32,154 nucleotides of DNA from Candidatus Aenigmatarchaeota archaeon (GTDB lineage Archaea; Aenigmatarchaeota; Aenigmatarchaeia; GW2011-AR5; JACRAC01), in NCBI GenBank assembly GCA_016213555.1, contig JACRAC010000026.1, positions 1-32,154 on the forward strand, in the 5' to 3' direction. Below are positions 3,453 to 25,920 of this stretch, in pieces (position 1 is the stretch's first letter; the number at the start of each line of letters is the position of its first letter). A program made the position numbers and the translations under genes. The notes beneath the pieces are model-generated. The model saw only the letters and a program-made list of their open reading frames with translations, searched no databases and had not been told where the DNA came from.

Positions 3453-6400
3453 TTAAGGTCTTATAACTAAAAAATAAACTAAAGATCCTACAATTATTAA
3501 AATAATGGCAACTGCGCCTATTAATAAAAATTCTGTATTAGATGTTACAGCTCCAGTAATAGCAGAACCTTCTGGTAAAGAGTTGTTAGATGATCCTGAA
3601 GAACCTCCTGAATTAGATCCTGAACCATCAGATATTTTTTTACCTTCATTTGATGTTACATTTTGCTGAATAGATTGATTAAAAAAAGTGGCATTAGAAG
3701 ATTGAGTAGTATTATTTACTTTAGTTATACCACCACTATACAAACTAGAACCTCCGCCACCGCCAGAGCTACCAGATCCTCCACTAGAAGTTTGTGTCAG
3801 AGATGGCGATTTTGTTAGAGGGGTTTTTGTTATGATTATATTTTCAGTATAAATATTAAATCCAGATTTAGTAATAATCAATTGGTATGTTCCTACTGCA
3901 GCAGTAAGAGAATAAAAGCCGCTTGAATCTGCTGTAGTATTATAAATTGTAACACCTCCTTGTTTTAATTCTATTATTGAAAATGCTCCATTAGTTATAT
4001 TGCCTAATACATTTCCTAAAGGAACTAAAGAAATATTCTGTGAACTATTTCCACAAAGAAGGCTTATGTTTTGATTATATAAAACATACCCAGACTTTGA
4101 TATAGAAATGTTGTAAATACCACCAAACAAGCCTAAATTAACAGAGCCATTAGCATCAGAACTAGCTGATGAAACCGCAGAATTATTATAATTGATAAAA
4201 ATATTTGCACCAGAAACATTAGAACCATCAAAACTATCATTTAGATGTACAAAAAAGTTAGATGAAATAGGATACAAAACAAAATTTCTTGTATTAATTT
4301 GGTTAGCCTTTACTAAAACATTTGAAATGCTCTGATTGATATAACAAAAATTATAAGCACTTGTATTGTACACTCCTCCATTCAAAGACATATTGTAAAA
4401 TCCTGCTGAAGACGTTGTGTTAAAGAATTGGCTTCCTACAAAACTAACATTAGAATTTAGTAAATTATTAAATAAATCAGAAACCGTTCCATTTACAGTG
4501 CTAGTAGCATTACTATAGTTTCCTATAGATGTAAGAGTTATATTTAACAAAACATTGACTCCAGGATATAAAATTACTCCAGTTATTGTTTGATCAAAAT
4601 ACCCTGTTTTATTGGCAGTTACATTATAGATACCTAAACTAGCATCTATAGAATAATATCCATTTGAATCAGTTAAATTAGAAATATTTCCTAATACTAC
4701 AGAAGTATTAGCTATAGAAGACCCATTTGAATCAACAACATAACCAACTAGCTTAGATACAGACAATTGAAGAGTAATATTTGAGAGTATTGTTGGACTG
4801 ATAGAATTTACAACAACTCCTTGTTGAATATTTTGAACATAACCTGATTTTGATATAACAACATCATAGGTTCCATTAGGTAAACTTAAAACAAAAGATC
4901 CGTCTAAAGCTGTTAGTGTACTATTTATTGAACTACTGCCTTGTTTTGCTTGAACAGTTGTATTAACAATACCAATATTACTAGAATTTAATATATAACC
5001 ATTTATAGTTCCTGAAAGATTTACCAAGAATAAAATTGATGATGAATTTGTATTATTAAATGTATCATTTGAAATTAGGCTAAGATTATGAATTCCTTGA
5101 GAAAGTCCGAACAAAGTAGTATTAGAACAATTTACAAGAGAAACTAAACTTGAGTTATCAATAGTGTAAGAACATGAGGATACATTACTGATGTCAGTAG
5201 ATGTATAATTTAGATCTATATGATTAGTAAAATATGTAGAATTTGTAGGGCTTTGTATAGTAATAATAGGTGTATTAGAAACAAAGTCTGGAACAGGAGT
5301 AGAATCTGTAATAGTTATATTTAGTTGCTTTAGAGCAGAATTTCCAGCTAAATCTGTAACATTCAACTCAACAAGATAAACACCACTTATATTATAAGTA
5401 TGATTTACATTTGACAACGAAGAATTAAACCCATCTCCAAATAACCAAAAGTATGAAACTACGCCTATGTTATCGGTAGAATTTGAAATAAATTGACTAG
5501 AAAACCCCTCAATAGCAGAAACAAAAGAAAAGTCAGCAATAGGAGCATCATTGTCAACAACAACCAATGTTTGTGTTATTGTAACATTTGAATTTCCTGA
5601 TAAATCATAAACAGTAACATTATATTTGACAGAAGCTGTGCTGTTTGAAGATATATTTATTGTATAATTAAATCCATTGTTTCCATTATTTGGCATTGAA
5701 AAATTATTTCCATTTATAATAATTGTAGCATTCAAAATACCTAGAATATTGTCAGAAGCTGTTATAGAAATATATGCTATTTCTCCTGTAGTAGATGAGT
5801 TTGGAAAATTTATTATAGATATAGAAGGTGCTATATTATCAAAAACAGTTATTGTAATATTTTGAGTGGCATTTAACAAACTATCAGATACAACAAATGT
5901 TAGATTATAAATTCCAGCTTGACTAGAATTAGGTGTCCAATTGAAAATACCTGAAGAAGAATTTAATACAGCACCAATAGGAATATTTAACACAGAAAAT
6001 ATTACAGTATCATTGTCAATATCTGTTGCATTTAATGTAAAAGTTAGTTGTTGTGTAACATTTACAGTTTTATTTCCTACTGTAGATAAAACAGGTGCTA
6101 CATTAGTATTATTGACAAGTATGAAAATAGTTTCATTAGATGATAACAAGCTATCTGAAACAACAAACGTTATGTTATAAATTCCAGCTTGACTAGAATT
6201 AGGTGTCCATGAAAACTGGCCAGTTGTATTGTTTACTGATGCACCATTTGGAAGTCCTAGAGAAGAAAATACAAAACTATCATTATCAGCATCACTTGCA
6301 CTCAAATTAAATGTAAGTAATAAAGTTTCATTAACAGATTTGTTTCCTATTGAGTTCAAAACAGGAGCTCTGTTTGTATTATTGACCTGAATTAGTATAC

Positions 6401-8441
6401 TTTCATTGGATAAAAGAAAAGAATCATTGACAAAAAATATTATAGAATAGTTACCAGCTTGTGTAAAGTTTGGTGTCCATATAAATTGTCCAGAACTAGT
6501 ATTAAAACTAGCTCCAAAAGGAAGTGTTGATATTAAGAATACTATAGAGTCTCCATCTGGATCGCTTGCGGTCAAATTAAATTGTAAACTTGAGTTTTCT
6601 GCAACTGATTTATTACCTACTGTAGATAGAACAGGCGCTCTATTACTATTATTGACCTGAATATTAACAGTCTCATTACTAGTAAGATTTCCGTCACTTA
6701 CAATAAAAGTTATGCTATAGTTACCAGATTGTGTAAAGTTTGGAGTCCAGTTAAACAAACCAGAACTAGAATTTAGAAAAGTTCCACTAGGCAAACTAAC
6801 TGAAGAAAAACTTATATTATCTCCATCTGGGTCAGATCCATTTAGAGTAAACTGTAAAGTTGAATTTTCATTTGTGCTCTTGTTGCCAACAGTGTTTAAA
6901 ATTGGTTGCCTATTTGTGTTGTTTACTTGAATTATAATAGTCTCATTTGAAGATAGTGTAAAATCGGAGACAATAAAAACTACACTATAATTACCACTCT
7001 GAGTAAAATTAGGTGTCCAATTAAATAATTCGGAAGTTAAATTAAACAAAGCGCCGTTAGGTAATCCTATTAAAGAAAATGTAATACTATCTCCATCTGG
7101 ATCAGAGCCATTTATAGTAAATTGTAAAGTTGAATTTTCTAAAACAGATTTATTTCCAATTTGAGATAGGATAGGAGACCTATTAGTATTGTTTACCTGA
7201 ATTACTATGCTTTCATTTACACTAAGAGAGCTGTCAGAAACAATAAAGACTACTGTATAATTTCCAGCTTGTGTAAAGTTTGGTGTCCAGTTAAAAAACC
7301 CGCTTGTGGAATTAAGCACAGACCCTATTGGCAAACTTGATGAAGAAAATATTAAAACATCGCCATCAACATCTGTAGCATTGAGTGTAAATTGTAAAGT
7401 TGAATTCTCATTAGTAGACTTATTTCCAATTTGAGACAGAACTGGATTTCTATTAGTATTATTGACTTGAATAATAATACTCTCATTATCAGTAAGGTTC
7501 CCATCAGAAACTATGAAAACAACTGTATAATTTCCAGCTTGTGTAAAGTTTGGTGTCCAGACAAAAACTCCTGAGCTTGAATTTAAACTTGCTCCTATAG
7601 GCAGTCCTATTGCTGAAAAACTTAAGACATCGGTATCAAAATCAGAAGCATTTAGTGTAAATTGTAAGCTAGAATTCTCATTTACACTTTTGTTACCTAC
7701 TGTAGTTAAAATAGGAGCTACATTTGTATTTACAACAGTAACATTGACTAATGTAGAAGAGGTAGAAAAACTATCGTTTGCTGTAAAATTTATTTGATAA
7801 AATCCTGATTGTGTAAAGTTTGGTGTCCATGAAAAAAATCCAGATGAATTAAAAGAAGATCCAGTAGGTAAATTAGATGCTGAAAAACTTATAGAATCAC
7901 CATCAGAATCATTTGCACTAACATTAAATTGTAAAGTAGAATTTTCATTCACACTTTTATTTGATATAGATGAAAAAATAGGTGCTGAGTTAGAAAAAGC
8001 CTGTGTTAGTGAAGAATCATTAAAAGCTCTTCCATCAATAGAAAAATATAGATTAACAGAAGATCCTCCAGCAGGTATTGTTATATTTATGGGAATTTGA
8101 AGAGATTTTGAAAGACTTGTATTATATATTATGGATAGTGTACCATTAGTATATGTCTGACTAGAACTTGCATGAGAGGAAAATATTGCATACAAAGATC
8201 CTGATCCACTAAACAGACTTGTATATGTTCTAGATCCATTATTTTCTACAAGACTTCCATAAAGAACATCTCCTGAAGAATTAGTACCATAAAAATAGAT
8301 TGCTCCATTATTTCCATCTCTTAACATACTCCCTGTATAAGAAACAGAATTCACTTGATTGACATTAAGAGATGTTGCTGCAAAAACTACTCCTACAAAT
8401 AGAAGAACTGACAAAAATAGCAAATATTTTTTAAATTCCAT
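3453..8441 (-). CDS. Giant surface adhesin-like protein with Ig/cadherin-like, PKD and carboxypeptidase-regulatory-like repeats
   Basis: 1662 residues. A signal peptide (1-22, ending VFAA) is followed by a ~130-residue N-domain. Eight repeats of about 90 residues (153-872) each carry GNKSVNENSTLQF, a D-x-D-x-D calcium-type loop (ASDPDGDS), LPxGA, FxWTPNFTQAGNY and FIVSD. They resemble He_PIG/dystroglycan-type cadherin-like domains. Next come an Ig-like domain (~875-965), a PKD domain (~965-1045, with YFWLFGDG), another Ig-like unit, and about five carboxypeptidase-regulatory-like units (LPNGTYDVVISKSGY and variants). The end is a Gly/Ser linker and a membrane anchor (last ~25 residues, LLIGAVAIILIIVGSL), preceded by ITGAV. 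N-x-S/T sequons are very dense, so heavy N-glycosylation is likely. It is probably a cell-surface stalk or host-attachment protein; that role is inference. The start has a TATA sequence (CTATAAATC) near 8465. Confidence 0.88.
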   Translation of the reverse strand: MEFKKYLLFLSVLLFVGVVFAATSLNVNQVNSVSYTGSMLRDGNNGAIYFYGTNSSGDVLYGSLVENNGSRTYTSLFSGSGSLYAIFSSHASSSQTYTNGTLSIIYNTSLSKSLQIPINITIPAGGSSVNLYFSIDGRAFNDSSLTQAFSNSAPIFSSISNKSVNENSTLQFNVSANDSDGDSISFSASNLPTGSSFNSSGFFSWTPNFTQSGFYQINFTANDSFSTSSTLVNVTVVNTNVAPILTTVGNKSVNENSSLQFTLNASDFDTDVLSFSAIGLPIGASLNSSSGVFVWTPNFTQAGNYTVVFIVSDGNLTDNESIIIQVNNTNRNPVLSQIGNKSTNENSTLQFTLNATDVDGDVLIFSSSSLPIGSVLNSTSGFFNWTPNFTQAGNYTVVFIVSDSSLSVNESIVIQVNNTNRSPILSQIGNKSVLENSTLQFTINGSDPDGDSITFSLIGLPNGALFNLTSELFNWTPNFTQSGNYSVVFIVSDFTLSSNETIIIQVNNTNRQPILNTVGNKSTNENSTLQFTLNGSDPDGDNISFSSVSLPSGTFLNSSSGLFNWTPNFTQSGNYSITFIVSDGNLTSNETVNIQVNNSNRAPVLSTVGNKSVAENSSLQFNLTASDPDGDSIVFLISTLPFGASFNTSSGQFIWTPNFTQAGNYSIIFFVNDSFLLSNESILIQVNNTNRAPVLNSIGNKSVNETLLLTFNLSASDADNDSFVFSSLGLPNGASVNNTTGQFSWTPNSSQAGIYNITFVVSDSLLSSNETIFILVNNTNVAPVLSTVGNKTVNVTQQLTFTLNATDIDNDTVIFSVLNIPIGAVLNSSSGIFNWTPNSSQAGIYNLTFVVSDSLLNATQNITITVFDNIAPSISIINFPNSSTTGEIAYISITASDNILGILNATIIINGNNFSMPNNGNNGFNYTINISSNSTASVKYNVTVYDLSGNSNVTITQTLVVVDNDAPIADFSFVSAIEGFSSQFISNSTDNIGVVSYFWLFGDGFNSSLSNVNHTYNISGVYLVELNVTDLAGNSALKQLNITITDSTPVPDFVSNTPIITIQSPTNSTYFTNHIDLNYTSTDISNVSSCSYTIDNSSLVSLVNCSNTTLFGLSQGIHNLSLISNDTFNNTNSSSILFLVNLSGTINGYILNSSNIGIVNTTVQAKQGSSSINSTLTALDGSFVLSLPNGTYDVVISKSGYVQNIQQGVVVNSISPTILSNITLQLSVSKLVGYVVDSNGSSIANTSVVLGNISNLTDSNGYYSIDASLGIYNVTANKTGYFDQTITGVILYPGVNVLLNITLTSIGNYSNATSTVNGTVSDLFNNLLNSNVSFVGSQFFNTTSSAGFYNMSLNGGVYNTSAYNFCYINQSISNVLVKANQINTRNFVLYPISSNFFVHLNDSFDGSNVSGANIFINYNNSAVSSASSDANGSVNLGLFGGIYNISISKSGYVLYNQNISLLCGNSSQNISLVPLGNVLGNITNGAFSIIELKQGGVTIYNTTADSSGFYSLTAAVGTYQLIITKSGFNIYTENIIITKTPLTKSPSLTQTSSGGSGSSGGGGGSSLYSGGITKVNNTTQSSNATFFNQSIQQNVTSNEGKKISDGSGSNSGGSSGSSNNSLPEGSAITGAVTSNTEFLLIGAVAIILIIVGSLVYFLVIRP
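5826..7985 (-). repeat. Eight tandem ~270-base coding repeats in the adhesin gene
   Basis: The eight Ig/cadherin-like units are also similar at DNA level; for example, a form of GTGTAAAGTTTGGTGTCCA recurs once per unit on the plus strand between 6460 and 7830. Units 2-6 are most alike, while units 7-8 use SSQAG in place of FTQAG. This is a typical substrate for recombination that changes repeat number between strains. Confidence 0.85.
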
Positions 8442-9233: not shown

Positions 9234-9346
9234 CAAATCACTAATTGTATAGACGCCGAAACACTTTAATAGTCGAAATTTTCAACATCAAGAACAAAGC
9301 TTAAAAGCTTTTCTAAGCCTCAGACGAGAGTTGAACTCGCGACCTC

Positions 9347-9376
9347 TTAAGGATCTATGAGAAGACCTCAAAAATT
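9347..9376 (-). other. tRNA-Thr intron 2, position 42/43, 30 bases
   Basis: Exon AAGG pairs with intron CCTT (4-bp central helix). The bulges are TAA and AAG, cut after the second base. Inside, TGAG-GTCTT-CTCA forms a small hairpin. Removal restores pairs T28-A42 and T27-G43. Confidence 0.85.
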
Positions 9377-9390
9377 TACCTTACCAAGGT

Positions 9391-9415
9391 TTAGCGGAAT
9401 GCTAATGACAATTCT
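9391..9415 (-). other. tRNA-Thr intron 1, position 28/29, 25 bases
   Basis: The bulge-helix-bulge motif is clear. Exon AGCG pairs with intron CGCT as the 4-bp central helix. The 3-base bulges are TTA and AAA, each cut after its second base. GAAT/ATTC forms the inner intron helix. Its first two bases complete the TAG stop codon of the overlapping endonuclease frame. Confidence 0.85.
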
Positions 9416-10163
9416 AACGCTCTACCAACTGAGCTACTGAGGCATATTGTTTTAATTTATTTAGATTTCTTATATTCTTTATAAACTTATATTTTAGAAG
9501 TTTGTTCAAGTTTTCTTTCCCGTTTATATCAATTCTCCAATCTTTATAAATTTTAATAGGATTGTACCTATTATCTTTAACATTTGCTATACAAATGGTT
9601 GGTTTTATATTAGCTTCTTCTACAACATTTTTAAAATCTTCAACTAATTTAGCATTTTCAATAGGAAACGAGGCTGTTATTCTAGGATAAACACCTCCTC
9701 TTATAAATCTAAAGCAAAAATCAGTGTCAATAAACCCTGAGACACATGCCATCTTAATATCTATTGAAGACTCCATTATTATCTTCGGAATTCTCAGTTT
9801 ACCCTTTTTATTTCCATTAGGAAGTTCTAGAACATAATGTTTAAAAGTAGCTACTGCTTTGCTTTTGAAAGTAGTATTTATTGTATTCTTTCTTGCTTCA
9901 AAAACTCTAGGATTTTTATTATAAAGACTAATTATCATTGATTTAATTACTATTTCATGGAATTCTCTTTCTTTAGAATAATCTCCAGTATATTGAATCT
10001 TATAGTTTGTAGATCCTTCTCTATCTCTAAAAATACCTAGATAACCATCTCCTATATGAATTCCTGTTTCATATGCTAAAAGACTTGACATTTTAGTTGG
10101 AATCTTTATACCCAATCTAATATCATTCTTACTGAATTCGACATCTGATAAATCTAAGCTCAT
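9414..10163 (-). CDS. LAGLIDADG homing-endonuclease-like protein overlapping tRNA-Thr
   Basis: 249 residues with two LAGLIDADG motifs: YETGIHIGDGYLG (about 31-43, acidic D39) and CVSGFIDTDFCF (about 140-151, acidic D146/D148). This makes a monomeric two-motif enzyme that would cut a long asymmetric DNA site; both motif acids are present. The last ~9 codons (ASVAQLVER) are the 5' exon of tRNA-Thr read as protein, and the stop TAG is formed across the exon 1/intron 1 junction. The gene is therefore beside and overlapping the tRNA, not inside an intron. The tRNA promoter must lie within this frame. The start ATG 10163 has TATA-like TATATTATT about 30 bases upstream. A recent insertion at the tRNA locus, or mobility linked to the tRNA introns, is inference. 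Confidence 0.83.
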   Translation of the reverse strand: MSLDLSDVEFSKNDIRLGIKIPTKMSSLLAYETGIHIGDGYLGIFRDREGSTNYKIQYTGDYSKEREFHEIVIKSMIISLYNKNPRVFEARKNTINTTFKSKAVATFKHYVLELPNGNKKGKLRIPKIIMESSIDIKMACVSGFIDTDFCFRFIRGGVYPRITASFPIENAKLVEDFKNVVEEANIKPTICIANVKDNRYNPIKIYKDWRIDINGKENLNKLLKYKFIKNIRNLNKLKQYASVAQLVER

Positions 10164-16699: not shown

Positions 16700-17082
16700 T
16701 TCTTCTTAATATTTTCCCAAAGACCCATGACATTTCCTTCACAATCTCTGAACGTTGCATAAAATCCCATTCCACCAATCTCTTGTTTAGGAACAAATAC
16801 ACTTCCGCCAGCCTTTTGAATGTCTTTCAAACTTTGATCAATAGACTCTACATCTATTACAAGTACAGGATGTTGAGCTGAAGTACCGCCTCTTTTAAAA
16901 ATACCACCATTAATAGCGCCAACTTCTTTAGGTATCATCTTAGAATCAACTTCTACAGTTCTAGCAATCCAATATTGCATATTTTGAACAGGTTCTATAT
17001 TCCATCCAAATAACTTATTATAAAAATTTCCTGCCCTAACTGGATCATCTGCAGGAATTTCAAAATGAACTACTTTTCCCAT
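16696..17082 (-). CDS. VOC (glyoxalase/bleomycin-resistance-like) family protein
   Basis: 128 residues from ATG 17082. The GTG at 17091 lies within the Shine-Dalgarno GGTGG (17092-17088), so the ATG six bases downstream is the better start. Two beta-alpha-beta-beta-beta halves are seen: HFEIPADDPVRAGNFYNKLFGWNIEP (5-30, read in parts) and VLVIDVESIDQSLKDIQKAGG followed by FYATFRDCEGNVMGLWE. The D-P-x-R-A-x-x-F-Y and F-x-D-x-x-G-N patterns are typical of the 'predicted enzyme related to lactoylglutathione lyase' group. The metal ligands H6, Q/H in the middle strand and E122-type residues could form a divalent metal site. The substrate is unknown. Its 5' leader is unusual (see 17078-17156). Confidence 0.85.
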   Translation of the reverse strand: MGKVVHFEIPADDPVRAGNFYNKLFGWNIEPVQNMQYWIARTVEVDSKMIPKEVGAINGGIFKRGGTSAQHPVLVIDVESIDQSLKDIQKAGGSVFVPKQEIGGMGFYATFRDCEGNVMGLWENIKKN

Positions 17083-17156
17083 TTCAACCACCTATTATTT
17101 TTATGGTGATTGAAATCCAGAAAGAATTTTTAATTCTTTTAAGGATTTTAACCACC
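17078..17156 (-). promoter_or_regulatory. Candidate RNA switch: two mutually exclusive hairpins over the VOC start
   Basis: Reading the minus-strand RNA, three elements follow each other. Element 1 is GGTGGTTAAAATCC (17156-17143), element 2 is GGATTTCAATCACC (17118-17105) and element 3 is GGTGGTTGAAATGG (17092-17079); element 3 holds the Shine-Dalgarno and the ATG. Elements 1 and 2 can pair over 13 of 14 positions, plus an inner 8-bp stem (AAAGAATT/AATTCTTT, 3-base loop). Elements 2 and 3 can pair over 12 continuous positions (one G-U) with a 12-base loop, which would hide the ribosome-binding site. Only one pairing can exist at a time. A TATA box (CTATAAATG, 17192-17184) predicts a transcript starting near 17160, just before element 1. 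The pairings are seen; switching is inferred. The same repeats could be DNA operators instead. Confidence 0.6.
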
Positions 17157-17183
17157 TTATAATTAATAGTTTAATTCTAAAAC

Positions 17184-17192
17184 ATTTATAGA
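17184..17192 (-). promoter_or_regulatory. TATA box for the VOC gene
   Basis: CTATAAATG on the minus strand, centred near 17187, predicts a start near 17160 and a 5' leader of about 78 bases, long for this window. TTTTAATATATATT at about 17215-17202 is an alternative. Confidence 0.5.
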
Positions 17193-18822: not shown

Positions 18823-18876
18823 ATGAAGAGAAGGGTTATTATAACTTCAAAGAAGATTGATTTCTTTGGAACTTAA
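18823..18876 (+). CDS. Possible 17-codon leader ORF upstream of suf
   Basis: ATG 18823, preceded by GGTGAT at 18809-18814 (the archaeal Shine-Dalgarno consensus, spacing about 8 bases). It encodes MKRRVIITSKKIDFFGT and stops at TAA 18874-18876. It spans both arms of the inverted repeat CAAAGAA/TTCTTTG. It is too short to judge by composition; the ribosome-binding site is its main support. Confidence 0.3.
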   Translation: MKRRVIITSKKIDFFGT

Positions 18877-18903
18877 TAAAAACCTTTCTTTTGAAAAGAA
18901 AGG
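18848..18903 (+). promoter_or_regulatory. Two inverted repeats in the suf leader
   Basis: The first repeat is CAAAGAA (18848-18854) with TTCTTTG (18862-18868). The second is CCTTTCTTTT (18883-18892) with AAAAGAAAGG (18894-18903), a perfect 10-bp palindrome around a single central G. The TTTCTTT core occurs in both, so alternative pairing between them is also possible in RNA. They lie between the HTH stop and the small ORF at 18911. They could be operators or RNA hairpins; the second would mask the AAGGGG before 18911. GTTATTATAAC at 18835-18845 may include the TATA box. Confidence 0.5.
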
Positions 18904-18910
18904 GGTTTAT

Positions 18911-19000
18911 ATGGCAGGATTAGATCCAAACGAAGCGTGTGAACAAGAATTTATTTATAAATTCGTAAGTGAACTAGCTGAGAGCGGAAGAGGTGTTTAA
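18911..19000 (+). CDS. 29-residue leader ORF coupled to sufB
   Basis: ATG 18911 to TAA 18998-19000. The product begins MAGLDPNEACEQEF and ends ESGRGV. Its stop is one base before the sufB ATG (19002), and the sufB Shine-Dalgarno GAGGTG lies inside its last codons: the geometry of translational coupling. Its first five residues, MAGLD, equal those of SufB with different third codon positions, which may be chance or a remnant of partial duplication. It has AAGGGG about 7 bases before its ATG. It may be a regulatory leader peptide or a tiny accessory protein. Confidence 0.5.
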   Translation: MAGLDPNEACEQEFIYKFVSELAESGRGV

Positions 19001-19001
19001 T

Positions 19002-20414
19002 ATGGCTGGTCTAGATACTATACAAGATTTTACAATAGATAGAAGTAGATATGATGATGCAAACCCAGAAGATGTTATATTCAAAGCACCAGAAGGACTA
19101 TCCGAAGAATTAGTTAGAGAGATTTCTAAGCAAAAAAACGAGCCACAATGGATGTTAGAAAAGCGGTTAAAAGCATTAGAGTGGTTTTTGAAAACGCCTA
19201 TGCCAAACTGGGGACCTAACCTAGATAAATTAAACTTAAACAAGATAAGATATTTCATAAGACCTAATGCAAAAGAAGAGAATAGATGGGAAGATGTTCC
19301 TGAAAACATCAGAAAAACATTTGAAAAAATAGGAATACCAGAAGCTGAAAGACGTGCATTAGCAGGAGCTGGTTCTCAATATGACTCTGATATGATTTAT
19401 CATAATTTGAAAAAAGAGTGGGAAGAAAAAGGAGTAATATTTGAAAATATGGATGTTGCTTTGCAAAAATATCCAGATTTAGTAAAGAAATACTTCATGA
19501 CACAATGCATTCCAATTAGCGATCATAAGTTCATAATGCTGCATGCAGCAGTATGGTCAGGAGGAACATTTATCTATGTACCAGAAGGAGTAAAAGTAAC
19601 TCTTCCTTTACAAGCATACTTTAGAATGAACTCAGAACAAGGAGGTCAATTCGAACATACTCTAATAATAGCAGACAAAGGATCAGAAATACAATACATA
19701 GAAGGATGTTCTGCACCACGTTTCGAACAATCTGCATTGCATGCAGGATGTGTAGAAGTTTTTGTGCATGAAGGAGCTAAAGTTAGATATAGTTCTGTAG
19801 AAAATTGGAGTAAGAATACTTTTAACTTAAACACAAAAAGAGCTATAGTAGATAAAAATGGTGTTGTTGAGTGGATAAATGGTAACTTAGGTAGTGGAGT
19901 AACAATGTTGTATCCATCTTCTATATTAAGAGGAGAAGGAGCTCGTTCAGACAGTTTAGGAATTGCATTTGCAGGACCTGATCAAAATCAAGACACTGGT
20001 TCTAAAGTTATACATGCAGCACCAAACACATGTTCAACAATAAAAGCAAAAAGCATAAGCAAAGGTGGTGGCATTTCCTCTTACAGAGGATATCTAAAAG
20101 TTACAAAAAATGCTACTAACATAAAATCTTCTGTAACTTGCGACGCTCTTTTGATAGACGACAAATCTGTCTCTAATACATATCCTTACATGAAAATAGA
20201 ATCAAATAAAGTAGACATAGCACATGAAGCAAAAGTAGGAAAAATAGGAGAAGATGAAATATTTTACCTTATGAGCAGAGGACTAACAGAAGAACAGGCT
20301 ATAAAATTAATAGTTGCAGGATTTATGGAAGAAGTTGTAAAACAACTTCCATTAGAATATGCAGTTGAACTAAATAAACTAATAGAACTTGAAATGGAAG
20401 GCTCTGTAGGTTAA
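19002..20414 (+). CDS. sufB: Fe-S cluster assembly scaffold SufB
   Basis: 470 residues from ATG 19002, seven bases after GAGGTG; a GTG at 18993 is inside that Shine-Dalgarno. SufB is the scaffold of the SufBC2D complex on which sulfur and iron are assembled. The family start (SEELVREISKQKNEPQWMLE), the beta-helix core, and the C-terminal signature are all present: Cys380 in SVTCDALLIDDKS (E. coli C405) and Glu409 in DIAHEAKVGKIGEDE (E. coli E434), followed by YLMSRGLTEEQA. First full-length gene of the suf operon; six bases separate its stop from the longest possible sufD frame. No FeoA, heme or other additional domain is seen. Confidence 0.96.
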   Translation: MAGLDTIQDFTIDRSRYDDANPEDVIFKAPEGLSEELVREISKQKNEPQWMLEKRLKALEWFLKTPMPNWGPNLDKLNLNKIRYFIRPNAKEENRWEDVPENIRKTFEKIGIPEAERRALAGAGSQYDSDMIYHNLKKEWEEKGVIFENMDVALQKYPDLVKKYFMTQCIPISDHKFIMLHAAVWSGGTFIYVPEGVKVTLPLQAYFRMNSEQGGQFEHTLIIADKGSEIQYIEGCSAPRFEQSALHAGCVEVFVHEGAKVRYSSVENWSKNTFNLNTKRAIVDKNGVVEWINGNLGSGVTMLYPSSILRGEGARSDSLGIAFAGPDQNQDTGSKVIHAAPNTCSTIKAKSISKGGGISSYRGYLKVTKNATNIKSSVTCDALLIDDKSVSNTYPYMKIESNKVDIAHEAKVGKIGEDEIFYLMSRGLTEEQAIKLIVAGFMEEVVKQLPLEYAVELNKLIELEMEGSVG

Positions 20415-25812: not shown

Positions 25813-25920
25813 CCCGAGTTGGCTCAACGGTAGAGCGGTTGGCTGTAGCTTAGTACTGGAGAAATCTCGTGCCATGAATCAGCAACCGACAGGTTGGGAG
25901 TTCAAATCTCCCACTCGGGA
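25813..25920 (+). tRNA. tRNA-Tyr(GUA) with one intron at 37/38
   Basis: The acceptor CCCGAGT pairs with ACTCGGG, discriminator A, no CCA encoded. C1-G72 is the archaeal tRNA-Tyr identity pair. D arm GCTC/GAGC; anticodon arm GTTGG-CTGTAGA-CCGAC (anticodon GTA); variable loop AGGTT; T arm GGGAG-TTCAAAT-CTCCC. A 36-base intron (25849-25884) separates positions 37 and 38. A T-run follows immediately. Confidence 0.94.
25849..25884 (+). other. tRNA-Tyr intron, 36 bases
   Basis: At the canonical position after G37. The bulge-helix-bulge is relaxed: C32-T33-G34 pair with C-A-G near the intron's 3' end, but T35 meets T. GCTG/CAGC is a 4-bp alternative that would compete with the G31-C39 pair. GAG-AAAT-CTC lies inside the intron. 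Confidence 0.75.

Follow-up and report, generated by a model that had tools for sequence, protein, structure and literature searches.

An archaeal gene of the VOC (glyoxalase/bleomycin-resistance) superfamily is preceded by three complementary elements that could fold in two exclusive ways. Is this leader a translational switch belonging to that one gene, or is it part of something wider? The gene lies in the window, the whole stretch of 32,154 nucleotides analysed here, which is contig C11 of an 879-kb archaeal assembly (62 contigs, 87% complete). Genome statistics were computed on 572 kb of the 879 kb, with genes called by a simple ORF script and not by a trained gene finder. We refer to this genome as G000 and to a congener from the same genus as G001; L numbers are contig labels. 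The coordinates of the features are collected in Table 1.

Elsewhere in the window, a covariance model found two tRNA genes, one of 128 nt at 9316-9443 (-) and one of 108 nt at 25813-25920 (+). Both were missed by ARAGORN, and both probably contain introns. The first is overlapped by a 249-aa ORF (9414-10163, -) in which LAGLIDADG-like motifs were recognised by eye. A repetitive 1662-aa protein encoded at 3453-8441 (-) has cadherin/Ig-like repeats, also seen by eye, and a C-terminal membrane segment, and is probably a surface protein.

Table 1. Features of the VOC locus and of related or neighbouring leader families. Positions without a contig label are those of the window.
Feature	Location	Strand	Remarks
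VOC gene, 128 aa	16696..17082	-	Pfam PF00903, E 1.6e-5; PF22677, E 1.1e-6
Gene upstream of VOC gene	18251-17220	-	No family match; 137 nt gap to VOC gene
Predicted archaeal TATA box TATAAATGTT	17181..17190	-	Best match, 6.8 bits; motif derived from upstream regions of this genome
Predicted transcription start	17160	-	About 30 nt past first T of TATA box
Element 1 (E1) GGTGGTTAAAATCC	17143..17156	-	Copy of SD/start region, with ATC replacing ATG
Core hairpin AAAGAATT-aaa-AATTCTTT	17121..17139	-	8-bp stem; present in both alternative folds
Element 2 (E2) GGATTTCAATCACC	17105..17118	-	Anti-SD/anti-start strand; can pair with E1 or E3
A/T spacer ATAAAAATAATA	17093..17104	-	Between E2 and E3; resembles spacers in sister leaders L156, L157 and L150
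Element 3 (E3) GGTGGTTGAAAT	17081..17092	-	Working SD and start region
Putative 23-codon upstream ORF	17084..17155	-	GTG in E1 to TGA; read from sequence
Sister hairpins, G000	L009 16658-16690; L018 5362-5397, 8352-8383, 15142-15173; L105 5698-5728; L014 1929-1957; L106 10304-10338, 16546-16574; L012 3085-3115; L156; L157		
Sister hairpins, G001	L116 9543-9577; L117 3840-3874; L150		
Codon-copy upstream ORFs	L014 1983-1904; L060 2308-2218; L018 15190-15124; L018 8394-8329; L058 6754-6691	-	
Codon-copy upstream ORFs	Window 18911-19002; L106 1611-1671; L050 1503-1598	+	
Hairpin arrays	G001 L115, L117, L125; G002 L134; G000 L051 335-441, L062 4807-4992, L059 15508-15553		

Two exclusive folds of the VOC leader

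Exact counting agreed with the pairings proposed in the first-pass annotation. E1 pairs with E2 at 13 of 14 positions (12 Watson-Crick pairs and one G-U pair) around the inner 8-bp stem, and the stretch ATTTCAATCACC of E2 pairs with E3 at all 12 positions (11 Watson-Crick pairs and one G-U pair). E1 and E3 are direct repeats with 11 of 14 positions identical. E3 had been described as containing the Shine-Dalgarno sequence (SD) and the start codon; the SD does lie within it, together with the first two bases of the start codon. A transcript beginning right before E1 had also been predicted. The best promoter match fits this, since the position of the TATA box and the general archaeal spacing from TATA to transcription start place the predicted start near 17160.

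The leader is unusual for its genome. Its RNA folds at -23.7 kcal/mol (z -3.5), better than all 200 shuffles in the folding check that the annotation had called for, and this z-score ranks fourth among 144 leaders of at least 45 nt. We searched all starts for triplets made of an upstream strand complementary to the SD/start region and a further-upstream strand complementary to that strand. The three-element score of the VOC leader, 26.2, was the highest among 646 starts in the 572 kb of this genome, and E2:E3 formed the longest SD-hiding hairpin stem of 504 leaders. Such hairpins are nevertheless not confined to this gene: SD-hairpins with a stem of at least 7 occur in 38 leaders of this genome compared to 20.7 expected, and hairpins with a stem of at least 8 are found at 1.1 per kb in intergenic DNA compared to 0.2 per kb in genes of the sampled genome. 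The claim that most leaders here are absent or about 10 bases long did not hold: in the sampled genome, gaps longer than 40 nt make up 53% of those between co-directional genes. The gap lengths and the density of intergenic hairpins show the VOC leader to be extreme rather than isolated.

By computation, the two mutually exclusive folds, one leaving the SD free and the other hiding it, are close in energy. When the transcript was grown in silico, the E1:E2 fold (-19.9 kcal/mol) formed before E3 was synthesised. In RNAs of 80-90 nt that start at 17160 and end shortly past the start codon, E2:E3 reached -20.0 to -21.6 kcal/mol compared to -19.9 kcal/mol for E1:E2. With 30 nt of coding sequence included, the energy was -28.5 kcal/mol compared to -21.7 kcal/mol with E1 blocked; here the start region pairs with downstream codons, and this shifts the preference towards E1:E2. 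E1:E2 was dominant in the 37 C ensemble, where the SD was about half unpaired, and at the longest length folded thermodynamics predicted almost only the ON fold. Because E1:E2 wins once 30 nt of coding sequence are present, and because the kinetic order favours the same state, the leader is predicted to be poised, with the E1:E2 fold as its default ON state.

These folds suggest how the leader might work. During transcription, E1 would pair with E2, enclosing the core hairpin, while E3 is still to be made; E3 would then stay free and the gene ON. If E1 were unavailable, E2 would pair with E3, and the resulting 12-bp stem would hide the SD and the start codon, turning the gene OFF. E1 could become unavailable through a 30S subunit or a protein on the SD copy, through translation, or through a transcript start further downstream. 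Candidate triggers are a 30S subunit at the SD copy, recognition of the core hairpin by an RNA-binding protein and the choice of a downstream transcript start. We infer that the transcript starts before E1, that the default state is ON and that the gene is OFF when E1 is engaged or absent.

Two other roles for the hairpins were considered and set aside. An RNA thermometer is not favoured because the predicted temperature response is inverse, with the SD more hidden when hot. A transcription terminator was rejected because the sense strand lacks a T-run after the hairpin and no plus-strand gene ends there.

Recurrence of the plan in the genus

The same three-element plan was found in this genome and in G001 at other genes, which include translation genes and other housekeeping genes. 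In G000, four triplets scored at least 22 compared to none in shuffles. In G001, ten scored at least 20 compared to 0.3 expected from shuffles, among them those of uL30, uS5 and L111. A DNA search of the VOC leader's own genome gave one further match, of 80% over 49 nt (E 1.8e-5) in AT-rich sequence, which lies in the eL32 leader of the ribosomal operon. By plan, the nearest relatives of the VOC leader are those of eL32 and uS9 (L006 19796) in G000 and those of uL30, uS5 and L111 in G001. The proposed module plan runs from E1, a copy of the gene's own SD and start, through the core hairpin to its complement E2, and then through an A/T spacer to E3, the working SD and start. A spacer-type A/T motif precedes 8 of 653 starts in this genome and is by itself a weak class marker. 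The genes with such modules are a mixed housekeeping set with no obvious regulon. The VOC leader is one of many gene-start hairpins built on similar lines and seen in this genus only, which suggests a leader family not described before, of elements that either control translation or were inserted.

A sister class of leaders carries a more distinctive core. This 'LSR' hairpin (model R1) has the form N4-UY-G...C-UC-N4', with a UY/UC (TY/TC in DNA) internal loop between two short stems. Across 11 copies, 8 of 10 base pairs show changes on both sides and 98% of the pairs are maintained; none of 500 shuffles did as well, and the covariation was lost when the partner strand was slid. In the intergenic DNA of G000, a descriptor search located the hairpin at seven places. 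Each copy lay 19-37 nt ahead of a start codon, on the sense strand; with the internal loop altered in six ways as controls, the search gave at most one such case. The literal pattern matched in its own genome only, and the covariance model added G001, with 14 matches in G000 (E up to 0.1) and three in G001. No credible covariance-model match was obtained in 29 other genomes of the order, where one hit reached E 0.059, and no Rfam family corresponds to the hairpin. The sister class is thus genus-restricted among the genomes searched. New matches that were not part of the model (L150, L156 and L157) show the order core, E2, A/T spacer and SD/start. The core hairpin of the VOC leader is plain, not of the covarying TY/TC type, and is absent from the R1 matches; its link to the class is through the shared layout and the short DNA match to the eL32 leader. 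The host genes of the sister hairpins, as named from sequence, are EF1A-, SecY-, uL2-, eL32-, eS28-, PheT- and Rad50-like, among others.

Whether the flanking elements follow their own gene was assessed on 14 leaders that were picked by the sister hairpin and not by complementarity. E2:E3 complementarity was 8.4 within the same gene compared to 5.9 across genes (permutation p 5e-5), and that of E1 with its own E2 was 7.0 compared to 5.7 (p 1.5e-4). In a subset of nine leaders, E2:E3 remained at p 5e-5 and E1:E2 was weaker (p 0.038). The anchored continuation of the outer stem by E1:E2 was not significant in the sister leaders (p 0.16). The own-gene complementarity suggests that both E1:E2 and E2:E3 are maintained gene by gene in the sister class, E2:E3 more clearly.

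Further leader families were observed alongside these modules. The sufB leader at 18848-19002 (+) of the window has two hairpins followed by an ORF (MAGLDPNEACEQEFIYKFVSELAESGRGV, then a stop codon) with an inner hairpin, which ends at the SD of sufB (MAGLD...); similar pieces occur at L054 180-230, L050 1525-1597 and L065 4841-4868. Several upstream ORFs open with a copy of the first 5-9 codons of the downstream gene that has diverged almost only synonymously. Most have a hairpin between the copies, and the real SD lies near the end of the ORF; the search for them demanded matching peptides, so this is a biased sample. Intergenic arrays of hairpins with differing stems and constant short spacers (TGTAC or GGATCC-like) were also seen, and the intergenic hairpin density rises to 4.1 per kb in G001.

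The first-pass annotation had recognised in the VOC leader the classic plan of a translational switch. Two exclusive and nearly equal pairings tied to the gene's own SD and start, and the recurrence of the plan at other genes, speak for such a plan; the leader has no aptamer-like core and shows no sign of a ligand. Our preferred reading, to which we give about even chances, is that the VOC leader is a two-state leader acting at the level of translation and, at the same time, belongs to a class of gene-start modules specific to the genus.

Origin of the module and competing readings

Some of the junctions at which modules sit differ between congeners. In G000, uL30 and uS5 start 2 and 11 nt past the preceding stop codon, compared to 76 and 143 nt in G001, where both carry modules. 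For eL32 the module is in G000, and the junction is tight in G001 and likewise in other relatives. G001 also has whole modules duplicated exactly in tandem, on L111 and L124, and the ends of the modules differ gene by gene. These differences between congeners look insertion-like and suggest fast turnover. Ordinary leaders, none of them of the VOC type, precede the VOC homologues of 12 other genomes in the class, and neither G001 nor G002 yielded the VOC gene. Within the VOC leader, E1 and E3 look like two start-region copies left by an insertion, with E2 as an inverted copy between them. The recurrence at many unrelated genes and the turnover in presence and absence speak for a leader module that was inserted and against a riboswitch specific to VOC.

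The main rival to a two-state leader follows from this same origin. The leader could have arisen largely as the by-product of inserting a small palindrome, which duplicated the start region (E1 and E3) and brought or produced an inverted copy (E2): E1:E2 would quiet the displaced old site, E3 would keep the gene translated, and there would be no regulated switching. The empty and occupied junctions at uL30, uS5 and eL32, the tandem duplicates, the many unrelated host genes, the other start-region copies in this genome and a predicted fold that leaves E3 free are all consistent with it. However, copies that have diverged still keep the E2:E3 complementarity of each gene, and compensatory change is seen in the sister hairpin, features that a decaying by-product should lose; the module ends are also not uniform between genes. 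We regard this as a realistic possibility but, on the whole, doubt it.

Translation of the upstream ORF offers another route, in which a ribosome on a near-leaderless transcript reads from GTG to TGA, is coupled to the VOC start and opens the hairpins as it passes. The open frame covers the whole leader, with its GTG about 5 nt past the predicted transcript start and its TGA one base before the ATG, and other leaders here hold ORFs that start with the gene's own first codons. Yet the GTG lies inside the SD-like copy, the E1 copy of VOC lacks an ATG and the peptide is unlike VOC, and an open frame of this length is not rare in such DNA. We consider this reading improbable.

A chance or neutral quasi-palindrome, arising by local template switching in AT-rich DNA, appears equally improbable. 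The three-element score of the VOC leader was reached by one of 6000 dinucleotide shuffles of the leader itself, so that about 0.1 such cases are expected over all genes of the genome, and only about 0.006 among the 35 ORFs of the window. Fold-back replication errors are a known source of direct-inverted-direct repeats, and the arrangement of E1, E2 and E3 fits them. Against this, the plan recurs in the genus well above the shuffle expectation, and the VOC core appears to resemble the hairpin of the eL32 leader.

A ligand-binding riboswitch for the VOC substrate or a related metabolite would accord with two exclusive folds that control access to the SD, but is very improbable given a simple hairpin with no conserved aptamer-like core, the lack of an Rfam match even at permissive thresholds, homologous VOC genes without the leader and unrelated genes preceded by the same plan.

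Relation to known systems and significance

The VOC leader had been said to match no known riboswitch, and the searches agree: no Rfam family matched it at gathering or permissive thresholds, the latter giving chance-level matches only, and no description of such elements was found in the open-access literature searched. In translational riboswitches and other SD-sequestering leaders, as in the VOC leader, alternative pairings set the access to the SD and an upstream strand (here E1) captures the anti-SD strand (here E2). Unlike translational riboswitches, the VOC leader has no aptamer domain, sign of a ligand, conservation with the gene family or Rfam match. In erm-type translational attenuators, segments pair exclusively, and the real SD is preceded by a copy of it. 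The VOC leader shares this arrangement, but in the archaeal leader a ribosome on the upstream copy would switch the gene off, which is the reverse polarity, and no leader peptide with signs of stalling is apparent. To our knowledge, descriptions of structured translational leaders are few in archaea and almost absent for lineages with small genomes.

L7Ae-bound k-turn leaders of archaea are mRNA leader structures through which an RNA-binding protein is proposed to control translation (PMC5539422). In contrast, the VOC core is a plain hairpin in which no k-turn is seen, and the internal loop of the sister class is UY/UC, not tandem G-A pairs. MITEs, Rickettsia palindromic elements, Correia and ERIC elements belong to the palindromic mobile elements of bacteria and archaea; like the modules, they are small and lineage-specific and present at many unrelated genes or leaders, and they affect the expression of their neighbours (PMC10969869). 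The modules differ in that only the short core recurs, the flanks being gene-specific copies or complements of the local start, and in that they sit on the sense strand directly before start codons; no transposase or terminal repeats were identified with them. The passages on mobile palindromic elements in PMC10969869 on which we draw describe no gene-specific flanks of this kind.

The logic of the VOC leader, as read from its sequence, would be that already known from SD-sequestering leaders. On a broader view, which we think rather unlikely as a whole, a hitherto undescribed class of small insertion modules in one archaeal genus lands at translation starts, leaving a copy of the start on each side (E1 and E3) and an antisense copy between (E2). 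Each gene that receives an insertion would thereby gain its own SD-hiding two-state switch, of which the VOC leader would be a well-preserved example.

The module family supplies many natural variants for direct tests of the pairing rules. If our reading of the leader is true, the recurrence of the plan at ribosomal-protein, EF1A, SecY and unrelated genes, together with its gene-specific antisense strands and its rapid gain and loss between congeners, would represent a way in which sets of genes acquire control at the level of the SD; alternatively, such genes may have no choice but to put up with insertions at the start codon.
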